In this document: piece by piece, positions 8,966 through 38,596 of the stretch | How positions within the stretch are numbered: position 1 is the first letter of the stretch | How the letters are laid out: each line of letters begins with the position of its first letter | DNA from: Candidatus Martarchaeota archaeon | GTDB taxonomy: Archaea > Micrarchaeota > Micrarchaeia > Micrarchaeales > CABMGC01 | Assembly (NCBI GenBank): GCA_023379055.1 | Contig: JAMCSX010000004.1 | Span: forward strand, 1 to 42,066 | Length of the DNA stretch: 42,066 nt | Direction of reading: 5' to 3' | The notes under the pieces: model-generated | The model's database searches: none | What the model was told of the DNA's origin: nothing | What the model saw: only the letters and a program-made list of their open reading frames with translations | Program-made: the position numbers and the translations under genes

Positions 8966-9006
8966 AAGGTTTAAATATATATTTAAGTAAATATATATTT
9001 ACTTAA
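8966..9006 (+). promoter_or_regulatory. TATA box and 24-bp perfect palindromic operator of the T4SS-like operon
   Basis: AAGGTTTAAATATAT (8966-8980) is a BRE/TATA element. Directly after it, 8983-9006 is a perfect 24-bp palindrome with arms TTAAGTAAATAT. It sits where transcription should start, 16 bases before the ATG of the pilin gene, with a GGTGG ribosome site between. Such a long perfect palindrome over a start site suggests a dimeric repressor. Confidence 0.7.
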
Positions 9007-9021
9007 GTAAAAGGTGGTTTA

Positions 9022-9381
9022 ATGGGAAATATAGAACAAATACACGCATGGAAGTTCCTTATTGTAATGTGCACGGCATTGATACTATTCCAGAAAGTAA
9101 ATGCGCAAGGGTTTGCATCATTTGACATAATATCCACTCTAAATTATGTACAGGCGCTGCTTACGCATATAGGTCCAATCCTTAGCGCTATTTTATTTAT
9201 TGTGGCCGGGATATTCTATGCAATAGGTCAATTATTTCCGTCTCACCAGCGTGCAAGTTTCCACACTACCTCCGGAGACTTAATAATGGGTGCAATAATA
9301 GTTGCCGTACTTTCTGTGGCTGCAAACAGTTTTGCACTTGCATCAACACATCTTCTATCTAATGTCACAAATATAACGTGA
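9022..9381 (+). CDS. TrbC/VirB2-like pilin (Ced/T4SS pilin candidate)
   Basis: The 119-residue protein has an N-terminal hydrophobic signal (about 11-28) with a possible cleavage after VNA at 28, leaving about 91 residues. Two further hydrophobic helices follow (about 46-70 and 86-110), joined by a short loop with His and Arg (SHQRASF). This size and topology match VirB2/TrbC conjugative pilins and the archaeal CedA1/TedC pilins. It opens a run of nine packed genes with a VirB4-type ATPase, which strengthens the call. Sequence motifs alone would not identify it. Confidence 0.7.
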   Translation: MGNIEQIHAWKFLIVMCTALILFQKVNAQGFASFDIISTLNYVQALLTHIGPILSAILFIVAGIFYAIGQLFPSHQRASFHTTSGDLIMGAIIVAVLSVAANSFALASTHLLSNVTNIT

Positions 9382-9385
9382 TAAA

Positions 9386-10414
9386 ATGCCTGCCTTTTCT
9401 GCGTATGATTTTAGTATAGTGATTGCAGTTCTTTCCATAATGATAGCAATAGGCGGCATTGCACTTGGGCTAGGATATGCAATGAACAGCAAGCCCCTGA
9501 AGGAATTTGGGAAGGATGAAATATACCAATCCCTCATAAACGGAGTGATGGTTGGTGGGCTTATTGCGCTTTTCATGCCCTCAGGCATAATAACAACTAC
9601 TGTCAATTCTATAGCTTCGCCTTCAGTATCTGCACAATGCCCCTCGTACCTTGCACAGAATGCTGCAATATGTTTTTCCTATGCATACTTGTCTGGTGCA
9701 GGATATACCTTTAATGGTGTATACCATAGCTCAGTGCTTTCCCTATCAACGATGCTAATGGCTGCACTATTTGCCCTAAACACTGTATTGGGACTTCTCG
9801 CCTCAGTAAAAATGTCAATACTACTCATTACGTTCTCGCCATCAGCAATACTTGCCCCAATACTAAATCAAATACAATTCTTCATAAAGGCGCTTACAAC
9901 CGCGTCGCTAAGCGCGTATGTTCAATCTTCGATACTATCCGCAATTGCGGTAAGTTCGCTCTCAATACTACTCCCGCTCGGCATCATGCTGCGTACATTC
10001 TATCCCTCCCGCAAACTTGGCGGGTTCATGATAGCAACAGTAATTGGACTTTACGTCGTATTTCCACTTACGTACATAATGGATGCGAACATACTCAATT
10101 CCTACTCAACAAGCATAAGCAATGCCTCTATAGTAAATATGACCAACCAGGCAACAAGCCTCAACGGATATGTGTCTGGCATCTCCGTATCAGACGCAAA
10201 CGGGTCTTTTCTATCAAAGATATCAGATGCATTGAAGTCATTGGCAGCGGATTTTTCGTCCCTTGCAAACCAGCTCATGGAAGATGTGGCATATTTCATA
10301 ATGGCAGCATTCATACTTCCAGCCTTTAGCATAGTACTTACGTCAATATCAATTAAGGAGTTTTCAGGCATATTGGGATCAGAGATAAACTTCAATATCT
10401 TCGATGCGGTGTAG
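9386..10414 (+). CDS. Polytopic membrane protein, VirB6/TrbL or CedA-like
   Basis: The 342-residue protein starts four bases after the pilin stop. It has about six or seven hydrophobic helices (roughly 8-30, 50-70, 115-140, 143-165, 182-203, 212-231, 300-322) and a polar segment at 232-298. A conserved-looking stretch LRTFYPSRKLGGFMIATVI followed by GLYVVFPLTYIM links the last central helices; similar R-x-F/Y-P-x-R-x-x-G motifs occur in archaeal membrane proteins of Ced-type clusters as I remember them. Position between pilin and VirB4 parts fits the inner-membrane channel component. Confidence 0.6.
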   Translation: MPAFSAYDFSIVIAVLSIMIAIGGIALGLGYAMNSKPLKEFGKDEIYQSLINGVMVGGLIALFMPSGIITTTVNSIASPSVSAQCPSYLAQNAAICFSYAYLSGAGYTFNGVYHSSVLSLSTMLMAALFALNTVLGLLASVKMSILLITFSPSAILAPILNQIQFFIKALTTASLSAYVQSSILSAIAVSSLSILLPLGIMLRTFYPSRKLGGFMIATVIGLYVVFPLTYIMDANILNSYSTSISNASIVNMTNQATSLNGYVSGISVSDANGSFLSKISDALKSLAADFSSLANQLMEDVAYFIMAAFILPAFSIVLTSISIKEFSGILGSEINFNIFDAV

Positions 10415-10417
10415 TTC

Positions 10418-11134
10418 ATGTACGAAGAAGACAACAAAAAACGTCACGAGTTCTATCTAGTATATGGGCTATCTGCGACAATACTCATTGCGAGTTTTGT
10501 CATGTACTCGCCATTTGCACTAATACTCTCTGCAGTAGTGTTACTACTTGCAGTAATAATGCTGCATTCTGGTCACATCATAAACAACCTTCTTATTAAA
10601 AGATCCCATATAATAGAGATCTCTGGAAATTACCGGCTTGGTAGAAACATAAATTCAATATCACGGAGATACGGAAACTCCTACAGGTCAATCTCAATGG
10701 CCCTCCTAAAACCACGAGCCACACAGGCGAATCCCGCAGTATTCAAGGAGCTTCTTGAAGGCCTAAATGAGCATTTTGAGTTTTCCATAGAGCTTGAAGA
10801 GATCGACAAAGGCAAAATAATAGAGGGACTTCGCACTAAGCTCAGGATGAAGGAGATCGCGCTTACCCGATCAGACCAGAAATCATACGACAAACTCAAT
10901 GCCATAAAGCGCCAGATAGATCTAATAAATGGGGAAATGGCAAACCTTGCCTTTGGAAAGTCATTTCAATTTGATATAAAAATAAAGTCAATATGTATCG
11001 CAGACGACCAATCTGAAGCAGAATTCTGTTCATCGAAGGATATAGAGGCACTTGCAAATAAATTTTCTGCGGCTCTTGGCACCGATTTCCAGATACTTAG
11101 CGGAGAAAAACTACTTACATATTCTGGCGTTTGA
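10418..11134 (+). CDS. VirB3-like membrane pair joined to a VirB4 N-terminal-like domain
   Basis: Residues 14-50 form two close transmembrane helices, like VirB3/TrbD. Residues 60-238 are soluble and rich in charged helices; in VirB4 proteins a comparable alpha/beta domain precedes the motor. VirB3-VirB4 fusions are known, and here the fused protein seems split, with the N-terminal part on this gene and the motor on the next, which starts on the base after this stop. No catalytic motif is present. The assignment rests on order and topology. Confidence 0.5.
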   Translation: MYEEDNKKRHEFYLVYGLSATILIASFVMYSPFALILSAVVLLLAVIMLHSGHIINNLLIKRSHIIEISGNYRLGRNINSISRRYGNSYRSISMALLKPRATQANPAVFKELLEGLNEHFEFSIELEEIDKGKIIEGLRTKLRMKEIALTRSDQKSYDKLNAIKRQIDLINGEMANLAFGKSFQFDIKIKSICIADDQSEAEFCSSKDIEALANKFSAALGTDFQILSGEKLLTYSGV

Positions 11135-12247
11135 ATGACTATGCTAACTTCAAATGAAATATCACGGTTCATGTGCATGCCTTTTGTGCAAGAACCCGAC
11201 AATGATGACGTTCTTAACCTACATGAAACTGGCGTATTTATAGGCAATTCACAAAAGTTCAATATGCCGGTATTTATAAATCCTGAGAATACCCTAAACC
11301 CTCATATGCTTATCTGTGGAATGACCGGCGGCGGAAAGACCTTCCTTGCCCGCAGCATAGTCGCGAGATTACACGTGTTTTTAGGTGCCAATATAATAGT
11401 AGTGGACTTTACCGGCGAGTATGCACAAGTGATGTCAAATCTATCAACATGTCCCACCAACAACATTTCAGGAATGTTCGGCGAATCAATAGGTATATTC
11501 TATTCCGATCTTCATGGGCTTAAAGAGAGACAGAAGATAATGGCTGCATCAAATATGCTGGATGAGATTGCAGATCTTATGAGATCTAGGGAATATGGCT
11601 TTAAAAGGCGCTTATTCATTCTTTTAGACGAAGCCTGGAAGCTTGTAGAAAATAATAAGGGATTGGAAGCCATAATAAGGGAAGGAAGAAAATATGGCAT
11701 AGGCCTAATAACATCGTCTCAGCTTCTGCACGATACAAATTCTAATATCCTATCAAACATGGCGACGTTGTTCATATTTAAGACTACCAGCAAATCAAGT
11801 CTTGAGAGGCTTGCAAAAAGCTACAATCTCTCTGATAAAGAACTTCTTAGCATACAAAACCTGGATCTTGGTGGATGTTTTCTCATCCAGCTGAACAAAT
11901 CTGGATCAAGGTCTGCATTTCAAATAAGAAAAGTCATCGGGATCAACGAATCTGAACTGTTTGGTATTAAATCTGGTGCAAATATGGAGATAAAGATTGA
12001 AAAGGAAAGGCTCTATGCGATAATAGAGTCGCTATGTGGTATACAAAAGCTTGAAATTATTGAAAAGCTCTCCGAAAGCAAATCTGTAGACCTTACTAAG
12101 CTAATCAGCCTGATGATTATGTACGGGGCAGAACGTGCGGCAGTGCTAAAAGAGATTAAAAAGATGGGATTTACGGATCATGACATAGCCGATTCATTCT
12201 CAATTGCTCTTAATGTGATAGACAATGCAAAACAAGAAGACAGATAG
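11135..12247 (+). CDS. VirB4/TraC-type motor ATPase
   Basis: The 370-residue protein has GVFIGNSQKFNMPVFI then HMLICGMTGGGKTF with Walker A at 62-69, the DFTGEY segment at 91-96 typical of HerA/VirB4 proteins, Walker B FILLDEAWKL (161-170) and EGRKYGIGLITSSQ (183-196). These are VirB4/CedB features. It is shorter than usual because the N-terminal domain is apparently encoded by the preceding gene (stop and start abut at 11134/11135). The C-terminal 80 residues are helical with no known motif. It should power pilus assembly or DNA movement at the membrane. Confidence 0.85.
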   Translation: MTMLTSNEISRFMCMPFVQEPDNDDVLNLHETGVFIGNSQKFNMPVFINPENTLNPHMLICGMTGGGKTFLARSIVARLHVFLGANIIVVDFTGEYAQVMSNLSTCPTNNISGMFGESIGIFYSDLHGLKERQKIMAASNMLDEIADLMRSREYGFKRRLFILLDEAWKLVENNKGLEAIIREGRKYGIGLITSSQLLHDTNSNILSNMATLFIFKTTSKSSLERLAKSYNLSDKELLSIQNLDLGGCFLIQLNKSGSRSAFQIRKVIGINESELFGIKSGANMEIKIEKERLYAIIESLCGIQKLEIIEKLSESKSVDLTKLISLMIMYGAERAAVLKEIKKMGFTDHDIADSFSIALNVIDNAKQEDR

Positions 12248-12905
12248 GGGTGGATACCTTTCAAGTATAATATCATTATGCGCCGAACAACGTACCAGCG
12301 TCGCAAAGGCAATGGCTACCCTTTCATGCTATCCAAACATCAAGAAGGTATCGGAAGGTAGCACGCCATCCTACCTGGTCAATATTGATGGAGTTTATGA
12401 TAGATTTTATATTGTGAAGATATGCAAAGACAGGATAGTTGTTACACTTAACTCTAGATCTTCCCCATTATACTTCATCAAAGAACATATCTTACGTTCT
12501 CTAAGCATCATAATGGTACTTTCTGATGACTATAAGGTAGATATGAGTGGACTTATCCCATATGTTGTAGAGGCACTTAACAGAGAGCTTGTTCCAGTGA
12601 TCTCGAAGCAAGAATGTGACCCTGTTGCAGCTACACATGACACTATATTATCAAAGAGGATTGTAAGTCTATTGAATGAGCGTAGTGAGCTAAACCAAAA
12701 AGTAGCAAAATCCAACGCGCTTTCCACATCGCTCATATCAAAATTCATACTCCAAAAATATGCATCTGGGTATGACATTAGAAGGATCGCCTCAGAACTA
12801 AACGTCAATAAAGATTCTGTATCCGAATCCTTGCATTATCTTGAAAAAATGGGATATCGCATGCTATTGGGAAAGGAAGGCACATTTGAGATGGTCAAAA
12901 TATGA
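12225..12905 (+). CDS. T4SS-cluster protein with C-terminal helix-turn-helix
   Basis: The 226-residue protein overlaps the ATPase gene by 23 bases. The N-terminal 110 residues are mixed alpha/beta with two cysteines and no recognised family. The C-terminus (about 165-215) contains ISKFILQKYASGYDIRRIASELNVNKDSVSESLHYLEKMGYRM in outline, a clear winged-helix-like unit with recognition helix VNKDSVSESLHYLEKMG. It may regulate the operon through the upstream palindrome or bind the transported DNA. Translational coupling to the motor gene is likely. Confidence 0.55.
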   Translation: MQNKKTDRGGYLSSIISLCAEQRTSVAKAMATLSCYPNIKKVSEGSTPSYLVNIDGVYDRFYIVKICKDRIVVTLNSRSSPLYFIKEHILRSLSIIMVLSDDYKVDMSGLIPYVVEALNRELVPVISKQECDPVAATHDTILSKRIVSLLNERSELNQKVAKSNALSTSLISKFILQKYASGYDIRRIASELNVNKDSVSESLHYLEKMGYRMLLGKEGTFEMVKI

Positions 12906-13339
12906 ACGGCATACTGTCTTTAATTATGAATAGCTGGCAGATACTGTTTGGTGCCGCTTTCCTAATTGTGCTAAAAACAATAAGAGGCAGAAAGCACTAT
13001 GTATCTATACATTATGAAGAACCTGCTGCCATTGATATGGCCGATGTGGGTGCCTGCGATCCGAATGCGCACACGGATCCGATAAAAGACATTCTGCTTA
13101 TTGCCGGAGTTAATCCGGAAAGTCAGTCAATCTTCAATAATGCATGTTCAAAGCTTGGCATAATATCTAACTCAAATATACAGTCATTAAAAATGCTGTT
13201 GATAAGGCACAGGTATGTTAAGTTAAGGGTATTCCGCGGCAACATTAATCAGATGTCAAGATTCATGCACACACCCTGCTTTACATCTGGCATGCTGCTT
13301 GCATTTATGCTCGACAAGAACCTTGAGGTGATTCAATAA
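12902..13339 (+). CDS. Membrane-anchored hypothetical protein of the T4SS-like cluster
   Basis: It begins in a 4-base ATGA overlap with the previous gene. One N-terminal hydrophobic helix (about 3-26) is followed by about 115 soluble residues with conserved-looking Cys and His (GACDPNAHTDP, FMHTPCFTSGM). No family is recognised. The topology suggests a soluble domain anchored to the cytoplasmic membrane, as expected for an accessory subunit. Confidence 0.55.
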   Translation: MNGILSLIMNSWQILFGAAFLIVLKTIRGRKHYVSIHYEEPAAIDMADVGACDPNAHTDPIKDILLIAGVNPESQSIFNNACSKLGIISNSNIQSLKMLLIRHRYVKLRVFRGNINQMSRFMHTPCFTSGMLLAFMLDKNLEVIQ

Positions 13340-13365
13340 CCCTTGAAGCGCTTTTCTTAACAAAC

Positions 13366-13530
13366 ATGATGCTATTCGGCATAGTGTTCAGCGCAGCAAT
13401 AGACACAATAATTCTATTCAGTATATTCAATGGCAAGATAAGTCATGAAAACATGAGGAAACTGTCCATGCCCCTTGCTCTGTTTCTGCTAATACTCCTA
13501 ATGTACAAGGCTGTTGCATGGACTATATAA
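13366..13530 (+). CDS. Small two-helix membrane protein
   Basis: A 54-residue open frame starts MMLFGIVFSAAIDTIILF and ends LMYKAVAWTI before TAA at 13528-13530. It has two hydrophobic helices separated by a short polar turn (NGKISHENMRK). It fills the gap between two cluster genes and overlaps the next start by 13 bases, so it probably belongs to the operon. The start could be ATG 13366 or 13369. Confidence 0.55.
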   Translation: MMLFGIVFSAAIDTIILFSIFNGKISHENMRKLSMPLALFLLILLMYKAVAWTI

Positions 13531-13781
13531 AGAATGTACTTGATTTTGACCGCAAGACCACATCCAGCGAAGCGCTTTTGGTTATGCCAAACATATTCCT
13601 GACCATACTTCTTATTTTATATCTATCCGGGCTATCAAAATCCTTTGTCAAAGCCCTGTTCATCCTGACAACAATAATTTTTCTATATCTATTGTATGCC
13701 TGCAGGTTATCAACCCGTTCTCGGCATTATGCAATGTTATCATTCATTAATCTGGTAATCGCCGGAACCTTAATACTGTAG
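13518..13781 (+). CDS. Small three-helix membrane protein
   Basis: The 87-residue protein overlaps the preceding 54-residue gene by 13 bases. A short polar N-terminus (MDYIKNVLDFDRKTTSSE) is followed by three hydrophobic helices (about 20-37, 42-60, 69-87) with a basic loop CRLSTRSRHY. No family is recognised. It precedes the HerA-type ATPase by nine bases and is likely a membrane component of the same apparatus. Confidence 0.55.
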   Translation: MDYIKNVLDFDRKTTSSEALLVMPNIFLTILLILYLSGLSKSFVKALFILTTIIFLYLLYACRLSTRSRHYAMLSFINLVIAGTLIL

Positions 13782-13790
13782 GCGAATTGT

Positions 13791-15986
13791 ATGAAGCTAT
13801 ACTATTTCAATATAAATGCCGTATCCGATAGCCTAGACAGAAAGCTATTTCTGGACTATCTTCTTAACAGCGAGTTCATGATGCTCCATGACTTTGGACT
13901 AGGTACCACCTCAATAATCTCAGAGTCACCTGAAAAGGTAGCACAGTTGAACGTGTCTGGCATGGGCATAGACGTTGAGGAAATTAATAGCATAGGCGAT
14001 ACCTCCGGTCGGTTTATGCGCGTTCCTATTGCAATGTTCCAGAATAAAAACTACAAGATAGCGGAAAGAAGATATATCGACGATATGTATGGCGTGTTTA
14101 TGGGATCAGACGTAAAGATGTTCTCATCATTTACGCATCCAAGGAGCAGAAGCATAACCGAGCTTAAGGATAATATCGAAGACAAGATAAGCAGGATAGA
14201 AGTCAGGTATTCCCACAGCACGGGCGAAGCAGCCATACGCCAAACCAGCTCAGCATCTAATGACTCTTATTATGGCTCCTACGAAAAACGGCTCCTATCA
14301 TTATTTCTTGACAACCTCAACGATGCTCTTATCAATAGGGGGCTTGCCTACAATACATCATTCATGATCAGACCTGATAACTACGAGGTTATAAACTATC
14401 TAAAGTCAATTGCCGTGGTGCTTGAACAGGAGACCATAACTGTAAAAAGTATAGAAGACCTATATGACCATGCAAAAAAAGCAGATTCAATACCGCTATC
14501 CTATGCGAATGCGTCCAAGGCAATAGGCATCTCAAACAGAATAAGGAGGGTAATAAACACCAGTTCGGTGGCTAAGACAATGTCAGGAGACATAGAACTT
14601 GGGAGATACATTTCTCCAGGCATATCTACAGGTTTGCAGAAGGCAGAGATAAACTCAAAAGTGCTGAATCTTGGGACCCTAATTACCGGGCTACCCGGAA
14701 CAGGAAAGACCAACGCAAGCAAACTTATAGTGGGCCAAGCCCTAAGGAGAAAGGCATATGCAGTAATAATATCACCAACAGGCGAGTGGGACGAATTTGG
14801 ACATAGTAACTCACTTAATGTAGTAAATCTTGGGAAGCCGCAGATAAATATAAATTTTTTCAAGTGTGAATCTAATAATATCTCAAAATTCTATGAAAAC
14901 CTCGCAATGCTGATCTCTGCAGGCTCGAATTCCGGACCTTACCAGAACTCGATGCACAACTGCCTTCTCTCTGCTTTCTCAAAAATATACGCAAAGACAA
15001 ATAATCCAGAGCCTGAAGAGGCATATGCCGAGATCGAAGATTCTGTAATAGAGCAGCACGCCAAGAGGACTGGTGCAGGAGTCAAATACACCAAGCATGG
15101 GGAGAATATCAGGGCAAGCCTTGAGGGATTAAGGCAAGTGCTCATGAAGCCGCAATTCGCATACTCGGATAGCACCAGCTTCAAGGAACTTGTAAAAAGC
15201 GGCGTAGTTTTTGATCTCTCAGAGTTAAGCAACAACATAAAGCCATTAATCTATGCACTTATCCTTAATCAGGTATACAACATATCTGAGGAATTCGACA
15301 TATATGGGGACAATGAGACAAGGCTCATAATCTGCCTTGAAGAGGCCCAGCTCGTATTTAATGAAGACAACGAATCTAGTGCTACTCTGGATCTGCGGGA
15401 TAGGATACAGAACTTCAGGAAGAATGGAGTTGCGCTTTTAATGATAACTCACAACATAAATGATATAAGCCCAAACATCAGGAGGCTGTGCCAGAACAAG
15501 CTCTATTTCAGGCAAAGTGCAGATGTTGCAAAATATGCTGCCAATGATTTAATATTCAATGAGGCAGATTACGACAAAATAGTGGAATTAATGAAGACAC
15601 TTGGGCATAGGGAGTGTGCAGTGAATGTGGTTGAGATGTCAAGCCACGGAAAGAACATACCCAACTCATCCTTTGTCAGAATAATGGACTACCGAGAGAA
15701 TACTTATGGCGCAAGCGATGAGCATATTCCACCAGAGTCAAACACTGCAATAAGGATAGTATCTGGCAGTCCAGATTCAAGTTTCCGGTATGAGATCCAT
15801 TATTTAGGTGAACGCATACGTTCTGGAATGTCTGGACAGCATGTGTCCATTGAAAAAGGTCTCCTGCCAAATAAAAAATACAGGCTCTTAGTGCTTGGTG
15901 ACAAAAAGAAGGAGAACAGAGAATTCCAGATCATCGGAGGTACGGATTGCGAGATAATAATGCAATCTGAGCATAAAACTACTTAG
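13791..15986 (+). CDS. HerA/VirD4-type ATPase of the T4SS-like cluster
   Basis: The 731-residue protein has an N-terminal region of about 290 residues of unknown fold, then the motor: Walker A ITGLPGTGKTNASK (300-307), VIISPTGEWDEFG, Walker B RLIICLEEAQLVF (511-523, with Leu-Glu-Glu instead of Asp-Glu, as seen in many archaeal HerA-like proteins), FRKNGVALLMITHN as sensor/arginine region. The last 90 residues look beta-rich (TAIRIVSG, FRYEIHYLGERI, YRLLVLGDKK) and resemble no domain I know. By position it may be the coupling ATPase or second motor beside the VirB4-like protein. Confidence 0.8.
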   Translation: MKLYYFNINAVSDSLDRKLFLDYLLNSEFMMLHDFGLGTTSIISESPEKVAQLNVSGMGIDVEEINSIGDTSGRFMRVPIAMFQNKNYKIAERRYIDDMYGVFMGSDVKMFSSFTHPRSRSITELKDNIEDKISRIEVRYSHSTGEAAIRQTSSASNDSYYGSYEKRLLSLFLDNLNDALINRGLAYNTSFMIRPDNYEVINYLKSIAVVLEQETITVKSIEDLYDHAKKADSIPLSYANASKAIGISNRIRRVINTSSVAKTMSGDIELGRYISPGISTGLQKAEINSKVLNLGTLITGLPGTGKTNASKLIVGQALRRKAYAVIISPTGEWDEFGHSNSLNVVNLGKPQININFFKCESNNISKFYENLAMLISAGSNSGPYQNSMHNCLLSAFSKIYAKTNNPEPEEAYAEIEDSVIEQHAKRTGAGVKYTKHGENIRASLEGLRQVLMKPQFAYSDSTSFKELVKSGVVFDLSELSNNIKPLIYALILNQVYNISEEFDIYGDNETRLIICLEEAQLVFNEDNESSATLDLRDRIQNFRKNGVALLMITHNINDISPNIRRLCQNKLYFRQSADVAKYAANDLIFNEADYDKIVELMKTLGHRECAVNVVEMSSHGKNIPNSSFVRIMDYRENTYGASDEHIPPESNTAIRIVSGSPDSSFRYEIHYLGERIRSGMSGQHVSIEKGLLPNKKYRLLVLGDKKKENREFQIIGGTDCEIIMQSEHKTT

Positions 15987-36522: not shown

Positions 36523-36984
36523 ATGTATCCTTCCAGGGCTGTTATTGCAATTGCCCTAATTGCCATAATTTTGCTATTATTGCTTGTTCATGCCCGGGCC
36601 CATACTGCGCAATTTCCAGGTTTCACTTTCAACAACAAGACATGGGCCTTCACATATATTGCAACTACTCCTGCAGAATGGGATTCGGGCCTGATGAACA
36701 AGACCGTAGGGAACAACACCTTCGAGCTCTTTGTGTTTCCCAAGCCCGCAATATACCCATTCTGGATGAAGAATACCTACTATCCTTTAGATATGATATG
36801 GATAAACGGCAGCAAAGTTGTCTATGTTGCACATGCTATTCCATGCATATCTTACAGTATCACGCAATCAAACTGCACCATCTACAACCTTAAATATGTT
36901 GCAGACTACGTGATTGAGGCCAGATCCGGATTTACAAATTCCACTGGCCTTGTGGTAGGCAGCACTGTGCATATAATTACCTGA
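36523..36984 (+). CDS. Secreted or membrane-anchored DUF192 protein
   Basis: A 25-residue hydrophobic N-terminus (IAIALIAIILLLLLV) acts as signal or anchor. The rest shows the DUF192 pattern: WDSGLMNKTVG, FVFPKPAIYPFWMKNT, PLDMIWINGSKVVYV, and the late GFTNSTGLVVG. Members are small extracytoplasmic proteins of unknown role. It carries several N-x-S/T sequons (NNKT, NGS, NCT, NST) that could be glycosylated. Ends eight bases into the convergent HerA-like gene. Confidence 0.82.
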   Translation: MYPSRAVIAIALIAIILLLLLVHARAHTAQFPGFTFNNKTWAFTYIATTPAEWDSGLMNKTVGNNTFELFVFPKPAIYPFWMKNTYYPLDMIWINGSKVVYVAHAIPCISYSITQSNCTIYNLKYVADYVIEARSGFTNSTGLVVGSTVHIIT

Positions 36985-38596
36985 ACTTCGAAGCAAAATC
37001 ATCTGAATCAAGCCTTGACAATCTGACTGCATCATCAAACCTATCCGAGTATTCCTTGTATTTTTTATCATTCACTACCACTACTGTCTTGGAATACTTT
37101 CCCTTCCTGGATTCCACCATCTTTACGGTCGATTCAAGATCTTTGCTTCCTGTCTCGTATTCTATTGCAATGCTCTTTCCATTGCAGAAGGCTACAATAT
37201 CCGGTCCATAAGAATTGTTGTATACCCTATTCTTAACCCCTATCGAGAGCAAGTGTGCGCTTATCATTTTTACTGCTACATCATGCTCGGCGCTGTTGTG
37301 GCTTTCAGAAATATACCATACTCCGGAATACCTACCGCAGTCCATAACGCATGACCTGATCTTCCCACATTTCGTCAGGGACTCTAATTCTGCTTCTATA
37401 TCCGCATCACCATGCATCTTAAGGACTTCTCTAAGTCCAGTGACATTAATGCCATCCCTTGCAGCCTGAAGTATGGAGAAACTTATATTATCTTCGCTCC
37501 TAACTCCCTCAAATCTTACTATAAACGGATTCCTTCCCTGGGCTTTTGACACTATGCCATATCCCCTGCGAAGATTCCTTACCGCTTTCTTGACCTCTAT
37601 ATATCTGCCCATCTCATTTCCTCCTGCAATGAAGTTAGATATATAATTTAGCTCTTCCGGCTCCCTCACATTAAACGATATGAACATGGCAGCATTTCCG
37701 CGAAGGTCATTGTCTATTGGCTTTGCCCTTTGCGACACCGCTATAATCCCGACGCCGTATTTCCTGCCCTCTGCAGCAAGCTTGCCTATTATCGGATTAT
37801 CACCAAGCTTCTCAGCCTCGTCTATTACAATGTAAAGCATCCCAGAGTCTTTGTGCCTGCATGAGAGCATATATGAATATACTTTCCTGAGAAATCCCTC
37901 TATGTATATGCTCTGCGCCTCTGGCGTGTGCAGGCCAGACAGGAGAAATATGCTGTTCATGGAGACTACCTCATTCATACCTACACTCCTGTGAAATGCG
38001 CCAGTATCAAGCAAGGATAGTCTCCTTTCGATTCCTTCAAGCACATTTTTTTCAGAAGTAGTATTTGAATTCCTCTTAAATATCTTCACCGAGTATATGA
38101 GATCATGTATGTTGGGCGTTCTGCCCCTTGCAGACATTACGTTGTAGGTGTACATTATGCACCTGTAAAGCGTATATCCTTGCACCTCCCCGAGTCTGAA
38201 GTTTCTCTTAAGCATTCCTGTTATCTCGCTTGCACGCTCACGCTCGCTTATGCCATCAAGGTCAAAGATATTTATTCCGTTTGTCGAGGCATCGTATATT
38301 TCTGCAGATATGCGCTTTGATATTCCTATATACTCATTATGGGGGTCAAGTATTGCAATTTTTGTACCAGATTCGTGCAGAGATATTACAATCGACTTTG
38401 TTGCATTAGACTTTCCCACCCCGCTCTCGCCAACTATCACTGTGTGGGGGTTTATTCCCTCGTAGGGATTAATGGAGAATCTAGAGAAGTATCTTTTCTT
38501 CCATCTCCATGCCCGTTCACCAAAACAAAAAGATTTAAATCCAAGTTCACTAACAACATTTCCAATAACCATGTTTTTTTTGTTCATAAAAACCAC
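36977..38596 (-). CDS. HerA-type ATPase fused to winged helix and nuclease-like C-terminus
   Basis: The 539-residue protein has Walker A IVGESGVGKSNATK (56-63), ILDPHNEYIG, Walker B LYIVIDEAEKLG (254-265) and EGRKYGVGIIAVSQR (276-290), the HerA/VirB4 motor order. Residues about 375-430 look like a winged helix (VTGLREVLKMHGDADIEAEL). Residues 433-515 hold SYGPDIVAF and KSIAIEYETGSKD, an Asp followed by E-x-E as in PD-(D/E)xK-like folds. This recalls HerA-NurA end-processing, but on one chain. It follows nfo by seven bases on the same strand, so a DNA-repair role is plausible. Confidence 0.75.
   Translation of the reverse strand: MVFMNKKNMVIGNVVSELGFKSFCFGERAWRWKKRYFSRFSINPYEGINPHTVIVGESGVGKSNATKSIVISLHESGTKIAILDPHNEYIGISKRISAEIYDASTNGINIFDLDGISERERASEITGMLKRNFRLGEVQGYTLYRCIMYTYNVMSARGRTPNIHDLIYSVKIFKRNSNTTSEKNVLEGIERRLSLLDTGAFHRSVGMNEVVSMNSIFLLSGLHTPEAQSIYIEGFLRKVYSYMLSCRHKDSGMLYIVIDEAEKLGDNPIIGKLAAEGRKYGVGIIAVSQRAKPIDNDLRGNAAMFISFNVREPEELNYISNFIAGGNEMGRYIEVKKAVRNLRRGYGIVSKAQGRNPFIVRFEGVRSEDNISFSILQAARDGINVTGLREVLKMHGDADIEAELESLTKCGKIRSCVMDCGRYSGVWYISESHNSAEHDVAVKMISAHLLSIGVKNRVYNNSYGPDIVAFCNGKSIAIEYETGSKDLESTVKMVESRKGKYSKTVVVVNDKKYKEYSDRFDDAVRLSRLDSDDFASKFR

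Follow-up and report, generated by a model that had tools for sequence, protein, structure and literature searches.

A conserved Micrarchaeota operon as a candidate Ced/Ted-like machine derived from type IV secretion

The window, i.e., the whole stretch of DNA that was analysed, comprises 42,066 nt from a Candidatus Martarchaeota archaeon (Micrarchaeota; assembly GCA_023379055.1, contig JAMCSX010000004.1). Positions 9022–15986 hold nine open reading frames (ORFs), g1 to g9, on the + strand. They are packed, with intergenic gaps of 0–26 nt or overlaps of 4–23 nt, as had been predicted from the DNA. The genes and the elements that precede them are as follows:

8970–8978, + strand: TATA-like element TTTAAATAT of the putative operon promoter; read in the sequence, recurs upstream of g1 in most relatives
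8998–9011, no strand assigned: palindromic operator TTTACTTAAGTAAA, core TACTWAAGTA; 0 mismatches in the window
9022–9381, + strand: g1, predicted VirB2/TrbC-family pilin, two transmembrane segments (TM), probable signal peptide (Pfam, hhalign)
9386–10414, + strand: g2, polytopic membrane protein, candidate VirB6/CedA-like channel (topology, operon position)
10418–11134, + strand: g3, membrane hairpin and CedB/VirB4 N-terminal domain, in a gene apart from the ATPase (profile matches, AF2)
11135–12247, + strand: g4, CedB/VirB4-type ATPase domain of the HerA/FtsK superfamily (NCBIfam, DUF87, hhalign)
12225–12905, + strand: g5, N-terminal domain of unknown fold and C-terminal winged helix (Pfam)
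12902–13339, + strand: g6, small protein, one N-terminal TM and a soluble domain (same place in 31 loci)
13366–13530, + strand: g7, about 54–82 aa, 2 TM (positional equivalents in most loci)
13518–13781, + strand: g8, about 87–101 aa, 2–3 TM (positional equivalents in most loci)
13791–15986, + strand: g9, CedD-like HerA/VirB4-family ATPase with its own N-terminal domain (NCBIfam, hhalign)

Conservation was followed in 43 loci fetched through their g4 gene, one of which ends at a contig edge. The same gene order recurs in these Micrarchaeota loci (g1 42/43, g2 42/43, g3 43/43), and the g1-g2-g3-g4 order is kept in all 42 informative loci examined, from two families, across an identity range of 14–69%. 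The original prediction had called for such a survey of gene order, which proved to be conserved rather than scattered. The later genes are less constant: g5 is present in 38/43 loci, g6 in 31/43, and g9 lies inside the operon in 23/43. Both ATPases, g4 and g9, retain their Walker A and Walker B residues across relatives. The system was found in 48 of 60 relatives; when either of two paralogous loci is counted, it is present in 88/96 near-complete Micrarchaeota genomes. The flanks of the loci, judged by eye, consist of chromosomal-looking genes that differ between loci. The predicted lack of a relaxase, VirB8, VirB9 and VirB10 also stood, as Pfam, NCBIfam and hhalign searches of those operon proteins that were tested detected none of them (for VirB8, VirB9 and VirB10, no profile match from g1–g6 or g9). 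The same searches gave no VirB11 relative, the stretch common to g4 and VirB11 in hhalign being only a 31-column P-loop.

By its sequence, g1 is a VirB2-family pilin, in keeping with the VirB2/TrbC topology first ascribed to it. PF04956 is matched by 24/34 g1 members (best 1.6e-5) and PF18895, T4SS_pilin, by 23/34 (best 4.8e-7), placing it with CedA1-type pilins at the level of the VirB2 family. Alignment to bacterial VirB2 by hhalign gave E-values of 2e-4 to 3e-4, against 0.08 for a reversed decoy. The g1 profile matched no solved pilin structure among PDB sequences.

The second protein, g2, has about 7 TM and was modelled by AF2 with a pLDDT of 83. Its topology and operon position agree with the VirB6-like character proposed earlier and suggest a VirB6/CedA-like channel role, but no significant VirB6 match was obtained by sequence or fold, even with a broad profile drawn from both loci. 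No match was found in Pfam, NCBIfam or PDB sequences; in the fold search the R388 chain 8rtd_I ranks second, with an E-value of 0.29. Homologues of g2, both loci counted, occur in 263/301 Micrarchaeota, with none in 72,556 plasmids and none in viral contigs.

The motor appears to be divided between two genes. All 38/38 g4 members match the NCBIfam CedB family (best 2e-25), the best curated family for this protein, although the window g4, at 56.8 bits, does not reach the CedB equivalog cut-off (NF041017, 700 bits). A DUF87 match (4.7e-14) and hhalign values of 98% to bacterial VirB4 and 99.7% to archaeal plasmid DUF87 proteins also place it in this family; its matches in the plasmid and viral collections are distant ATPases only. 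However, g4 covers CedB from about position 247 onward and is only the ATPase half of the VirB4 motor that had been assigned to it. Distant g3 proteins align to CedB positions 4–219 of 590 (E 0.0002–0.003), colinear with the g4 span. Since these matches fall where the CedB N-terminal domain lies, g3 and g4 have the appearance of a single CedB/VirB4 divided between two genes. When the two were joined as an artificial read-through chain, AF2 returned a pLDDT of 91, with the g3 part forming an ordered alpha/beta domain (pLDDT about 90). The top Foldseek match of this model is R388 TrwK/VirB4 (E 4e-14, scored for the whole chain). The hhalign match of g3 to the N-termini of VirB4 or archaeal plasmid ATPases is weak, and its profile matched nothing among PDB sequences. 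With moderate support, then, g3 supplies the CedB N-terminal domain, and the pair would amount to a VirB4 with that domain.

The membrane pair ahead of the motor had earlier been described as VirB3-like. The hydrophobic N-terminal hairpin of g3, which is followed by a soluble domain, is real, but plain VirB3 was rejected (hhalign probability 0.3–1% against nine VirB3 sequences), and g3 is better described as a membrane anchor and N-terminal domain of CedB/VirB4.

The operon ends with a second ATPase, g9, anticipated as HerA-type and here placed in the HerA/VirB4 family. CedD is its commonest NCBIfam match (15/21 members, best 1.7e-10); the window g9 scores 38.5 bits, short of the CedD equivalog cut-off (NF053655, 600 bits). 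Its hhalign value to VirB4 is 93%. A place for g9 as a partner in the operator regulon was considered and set aside, since most unlinked copies have no operator.

Between the two ATPases lie four further proteins. The winged helix foreseen in g5 is confirmed by matches to HTH_36 (2.4e-4) and Fe_dep_repress (4.5e-5), both inside residues 175–211 at the C-terminus, and the protein may be a regulator or a component. The three small membrane proteins were likewise recovered in the window, with one TM in g6 and two each in g7 and g8. The g6 alignment is weakly conserved. In most loci the gap between g6 and g9 holds two small membrane ORFs, and candidates for g7 and g8 outscored all 40 of their own shuffled copies in 19/24 and 15/19 cases (leave-one-out profiles). 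Neither Pfam nor NCBIfam offers a family for g6, g7 or g8.

Upstream of g1, TTTAAATAT is probably a TATA box, and the operator TTTACTTAAGTAAA lies near the expected transcription start, just before the gene. The core TACTWAAGTA occurs with 0–1 mismatch within 100 nt upstream of g1 in 33/40 loci, compared to 1.1% of random windows. The long perfect inverted repeat seen at the window promoter was rejected as the conserved unit, as relatives have it only partly in common; it is the 10-base core that they conserve. The operator 12-mer has one other exact copy in the genome, upstream of a type IV pilus-type ATPase operon, which keeps it in 19/29 relatives (12 exact; background about 1%). The pilus-type ATPase family and the system co-occur modestly (37/48 vs 5/12, p=0.03).

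The near-complete genomes checked have, besides this operon, a second locus paralogous to it, in which g2-like genes stand in tandem, g3-like genes are paired and a g4-like gene occurs once. It repeats the order pilin, g2-like, g3-like, g4-like and winged helix, with a g5-type gene directly after the g4-like gene. Neither this locus nor the shared operator figured in the original prediction. The proposal that the phylum keeps two domesticated type IV secretion machines, paralogous to each other, is evenly balanced. One would be compact and Ced-like, with the split VirB4 and the operator shared with the pilus-type operon, as an Ups + Ced module that exchanges DNA or captures it from the host. 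The other would be larger, with some six VirB6/CedA-like proteins in tandem and VirB4 N-terminal proteins in pairs, and in this genome it lies beside a giant surface protein.

A VirB2-type pilin, a CedB-like motor, a CedD-like ATPase, the lack of a relaxase and a conserved order together point to a Ced-like machine. The favoured reading, held with somewhat better than even confidence, is that the nine genes encode a machine of type IV secretion descent, chromosomal and without a relaxase, whose nearest counterparts are the Ced/Ted DNA-import systems. This retains the Ced-like gene set and order of the original prediction, and gives up g3 as a plain VirB3 and g4 as a whole motor. Of the possible functions, DNA import or exchange has the most support, with both the substrate and the direction of transport presumed. 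In the proposed scheme, g1 pilins would be stored in the membrane and would assemble on the g2 channel to give a thin pilus or a conduit. The g3-g4 pair would act as one CedB/VirB4 motor, anchored in the membrane by g3, which would also contribute the N-terminal domain, and with an ATPase ring formed by g4; g9 would act with this motor on DNA as a second ATPase. The proteins g6–g8 would be membrane accessories. Transcription would be controlled by the palindromic operator; because this is shared with the pilus-type operon, pilus cell contact and DNA transfer (import from kin or host) may be switched together, as for Ups and Ced in Sulfolobales. That contact and transfer go together is suggested by the operator and by this parallel.

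The main competing explanation, possible though rather unlikely, is a device for host contact or for protein or metabolite transfer, in which the core of a type IV secretion system (T4SS) was kept but adapted for tapping or manipulating the host cell. The DPANN lifestyle and the missing relaxase are in keeping with it, and similar proposals exist for the T4SS of Patescibacteria and for nanohaloarchaea, which have giant proteins with VirB4-like ATPases (PMC10266531). The Patescibacteria T4SS is encoded on the chromosome, has VirB2-like pilins and in most cases no relaxase, and one strain was found to need it for growth as an epibiont; PF18895 is one of the profiles used there (PMC12102498, PMC12857230). 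At one related locus (L108) the operon runs on into proteins of 710 and 1024 aa with weak Ig-like matches, but no large extracellular protein is encoded in the operon of the window. Against this device also stand the two ATPases, which are closest to CedB and CedD, proteins that serve DNA import, and the fact that a second DNA-pump-like ATPase is retained.

Less probable again is that g1–g4 form the machine and g9 is a separate HerA-type DNA-repair helicase, merely adjacent. It is unlinked from the operon in several genomes and sits on its own long branch near HerA, and HerA and Rad50 genes neighbour Ted loci (PMC9905601). Yet genomes with the system tend to have g9 as well, also where the two are unlinked (42/48 vs 1/12, p=4e-7), and CedD is its best match. 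Three stand-alone g9 genomes also have a 1-mismatch operator core 29–83 nt upstream of the match, a weak point given that 15% of random 330-nt stretches would do the same. It is very improbable that the operon serves the self-transfer of an integrated conjugative element from cell to cell. Archaeal conjugative plasmids carry ATPases homologous to g4 and likewise have no known relaxase (PMC9905601, PMC12857230), but the lack of a relaxase in the operon, the near-ubiquity of the system in the phylum, the chromosomal-looking flanks and the absence of g2 relatives from plasmids and viral contigs argue against mobility. That small membrane proteins with no relation to one another happen to lie next to two ATPases, as the lack of database families for g2 and g6–g8 might suggest, is contradicted by the conserved order and its repetition in the paralogous locus and can practically be dismissed.

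The preferred reading, a Ced-like machine, addresses the question of how host-dependent, tiny-genome DPANN archaea exchange DNA or tap their hosts. No paper on such a system in Micrarchaeota was found in the literature searched; the operator common to the system and the pilus-type operon and the second locus are new here. The conserved operon, its defined operator, the split motor and the co-regulated pilus-type operon provide named genes for testing. If true, the reading would carry the range of Ced/Ted-type machines beyond Thermoproteota into DPANN. It would also provide a counterpart to the T4SS of Patescibacteria, which with DPANN make up the two great groups of ultrasmall cells, and would inform the question of how the VirB4 N-terminal domain came to be common to CedB and CedD, which match different parts of it in Sulfolobales (PMC11868833).

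Among known systems, the Ced machine of Sulfolobales (CedA, CedA1, CedB, CedD and CedE) has a similar 2-TM VirB2-like pilin, polytopic channel candidate and pair of CedB-like and CedD-like ATPases, without a relaxase or VirB8–10. Ups and Ced are both induced by DNA damage (PMC11868833), and the pilus-type operon of Micrarchaeota is apparently co-regulated as well. Unlike Ced, the Micrarchaeota genes form a single operon, CedB is split into g3 and g4, g5–g8 are additional, and curated Ced cut-offs are not reached. The operator is common to both operons, whereas the ups motif of S. acidocaldarius was not found at its ced loci (PMC5817253). The Ted system of Thermoproteales (TedA, TedB and TedC), likened by its description, places a signal-sequence pilin, a VirB6-like membrane protein and a VirB4-like ATPase close together, often near a HerA-like gene; the available part of that source mentions no split ATPase and nothing like g5–g8 (PMC9905601). 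The T4SS of Patescibacteria (CPR) likewise belongs to ultrasmall dependent cells. It differs in that the bacterial parts VirB1, VirB3, VirB6 and VirB8 are recognised; no VirB3-VirB4 fusions turned up there, and the available parts of the reports do not speak of a VirB4 divided in the manner of g3/g4 (PMC12102498, PMC12857230). The conjugative plasmids pNOB8, pKEF9 and pT33-3 (Sulfolobales, Thermococcus) share a DUF87/CedB-like ATPase homologous to g4, but theirs is unsplit and plasmid-borne.

The nine packed genes, g1 to g9, occupy positions 9022-15986 on one strand, separated by intergenic gaps of no more than 26 nt or joined by short overlaps, and all nine ORFs were recovered exactly where the original prediction had drawn them. 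The source assembly is of Micrarchaeota type (862 kb, 28 contigs), and the named genomes nearest to it are Candidatus Micrarchaeota MAGs. A search with the ATPase g4 covered 60 relatives; 40 neighbourhoods and two public ones were fetched, with genes assigned by iterative profiles. The presence of g4 in this set is by construction, as the loci were selected through it. Wherever a contig end does not truncate the locus, the genes g1-g2-g3-g4 are adjacent and in the same order. The winged-helix gene g5 is present in 38 loci, the small membrane protein gene g6 in 31, and g9, encoding a second ATPase, within the operon in 23; in most loci the g6-g9 interval is filled by a pair of small membrane ORFs, the counterparts of g7 and g8. 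On our reading of the searches, counting strong matches only, the operon itself occurs in 48 of the 60 relatives. Homologues of g2 and g3 are found in 263 and 265 of 301 phylum genomes, respectively, and each in 88 of 96 near-complete ones, paralogues from a second locus included.

Variations on this layout have been noted. In one genome, a transposase-like ORF interrupts g9 (L055:6489-7862), and in one genome of family 2 the g6 counterpart (L072:8156-8974, minus strand) has an extra N-terminal segment ahead of the second TM, which other g6 proteins lack. In other families, g1-g2 and g3-g4 lie at separate loci (L112, L113, L117, L119, L123, L174, L175), in contrast to the single operon of the window. 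The operon of a distant family (L108:5387-10580) runs on into proteins of 710 and 1024 aa with weak Ig-like matches, possibly surface or pilus-tip proteins. An ORF of ~400 aa lies downstream of the operon in nine loci (L037:7499-8704 and eight others), directly adjacent in six; by eye, it looks like the archaeal Nre DNA-repair protein. A further ATPase gene, immediately followed by a 273-aa ORF, is probably the housekeeping HerA:

Window 36977-38596, minus strand: HerA-type ATPase (DUF87), same contig, separate from the operon

The predicted VirB2/TrbC pilin, g1, is borne out by Pfam matches of its members to TrbC/VirB2 (24/34) and T4SS_pilin (23/34). The VirB6-like assignment of g2 fared less evenly. 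Topology and position agree with it, but the model (pLDDT 83) returned no significant match in a fold search, the best R388 chain, from the inner-membrane complex, ranking second at E 0.29. The protein is therefore called VirB6/CedA-like by topology and position only.

CedB ranks first among the curated families for g4 and is matched by 38/38 members, which upholds the proposed VirB4/CedB-like motor; for g9, CedD is the most frequent. Neither match reaches the curated cut-off, so the two proteins are relatives of CedB and CedD and not certified members. In a tree of 49 ATPases, built by a quick method and with some long branches, the g4 proteins cluster together, those of the two loci with those of distant Micrarchaeota (support 92); bacterial VirB4, archaeal plasmid ATPases, VirD4 and g9 all fall outside this cluster.

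The membrane hairpin protein g3 has no obvious family at first sight. Compared with 18,950 NCBIfam models, the g3 proteins of several lineages pick CedB (E 0.0002 to 0.003), covering positions 4-184, 12-219, 112-217 and 10-181 of 590, and two of them also touch VirB4-type models in the N-terminal halves. The g4 matches to CedB begin at ~position 247; g3 and g4 thus resemble the two halves of a single CedB/VirB4, in colinear order. Taken singly, the E-values are weak; the reading is persuasive because one family is chosen repeatedly, at the expected positions, and g4 follows immediately downstream. An artificial read-through chain of g3 and g4, permitted by the adjacent in-frame stop and start, was modelled by AlphaFold2 with a mean pLDDT of 91. 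In the PDB it is matched best by TrwK/VirB4 of R388; the output leaves it unclear whether the alignment takes in the g3 part at all, so this match supports mainly g4.

Faint additional hits obtained with the g2 and g3 profiles pointed to a second locus:

L132 (contig C13 of the window's genome, cut at the contig end), L171, L172, L173, L116, L121, L125: paralogous T4SS-like gene sets with about six g2-like polytopic proteins in tandem, two of g3 type, a single g4-like ATPase and a wHTH protein
L132:2252-9544, minus strand: 2430-aa ORF adjoining the second locus in the window's genome

Three of the loci (L171-L173) were read from end to end: each has pilin-like proteins and a 6-TM protein, six g2-like proteins in tandem together with two of g3 type, and a g4-like ATPase of ~500 aa, along with a short ORF resembling the g4 tail and a winged helix similar to g5. 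Profile matches suggest the same content in two further genomes (G013, G058). Profile-profile comparison establishes true homology of the g2-like proteins to g2 (99.9%; reversed decoy 3%) and of the g3-like proteins to g3 (99.6%; reversed decoy 2%).

Expression of the operon may be tied to a palindromic operator with the core TACTWAAGTA:

Window 8998-9011: operator TTTACTTAAGTAAA, upstream of g1
Window 8970: TATA-like TTTAAATAT, ahead of the operator
L195:773-2266 (G000:C16:18272-19765), minus strand: operon of a type IV pilus/secretion ATPase, preceded by the same operator at a distance of a few bases and conserved in relatives

The core, at 0-1 mismatch and within 100 nt upstream of g1, occurs in 33/40 loci, against 1.1% of random windows. 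The 12-mer TTACTWAAGTAA has only two exact occurrences in the genome, before g1 and a few bases before the gene for a 498-aa ATPase. In the PDB, this ATPase is most closely matched by the type II secretion-type protein 2oap, CpaF and FlaI; the following gene, read by eye, looks like a pilus platform. Of the orthologues of the ATPase gene in relatives, 19/29 have the core, with one mismatch at most, no farther than 45 nt from a start codon (12 exact; background 1%). Across 15 genomes, 9/12 exact 12-mer places are at the Ced-like and pilus-type operons. Two of the remaining three lie within 600 bases of each other in one genome (G054), where a downstream ORF, judged by eye, carries a pilin-type signal; the third (G009) is near what looks like a mobile element. 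The operator is thus common to a Ced-like and a type IV pilus-type operon.

DNA import or exchange is the favoured prediction for the operon: it encodes two Ced-type ATPases, has its operator in common with a pilus-type operon and lacks conjugation genes. A device directed at the host is a serious rival, with the T4SS of Patescibacteria as precedent (PMC12102498, PMC12857230). The open-licence literature searched for Ced, VirB4 or type IV secretion in Micrarchaeota yielded no description of this operon, which is not proof of novelty. The operon is a variant form of the Ced/T4SS type. DNA damage induces both the Ups pilus and Ced in Sulfolobales, where DNA exchange requires the two of them (PMC11868833). 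The ups promoter motif was not detected at the ced loci of S. acidocaldarius (PMC5817253), whereas in Micrarchaeota one operator would serve both the Ced-like and the pilus-type operon.
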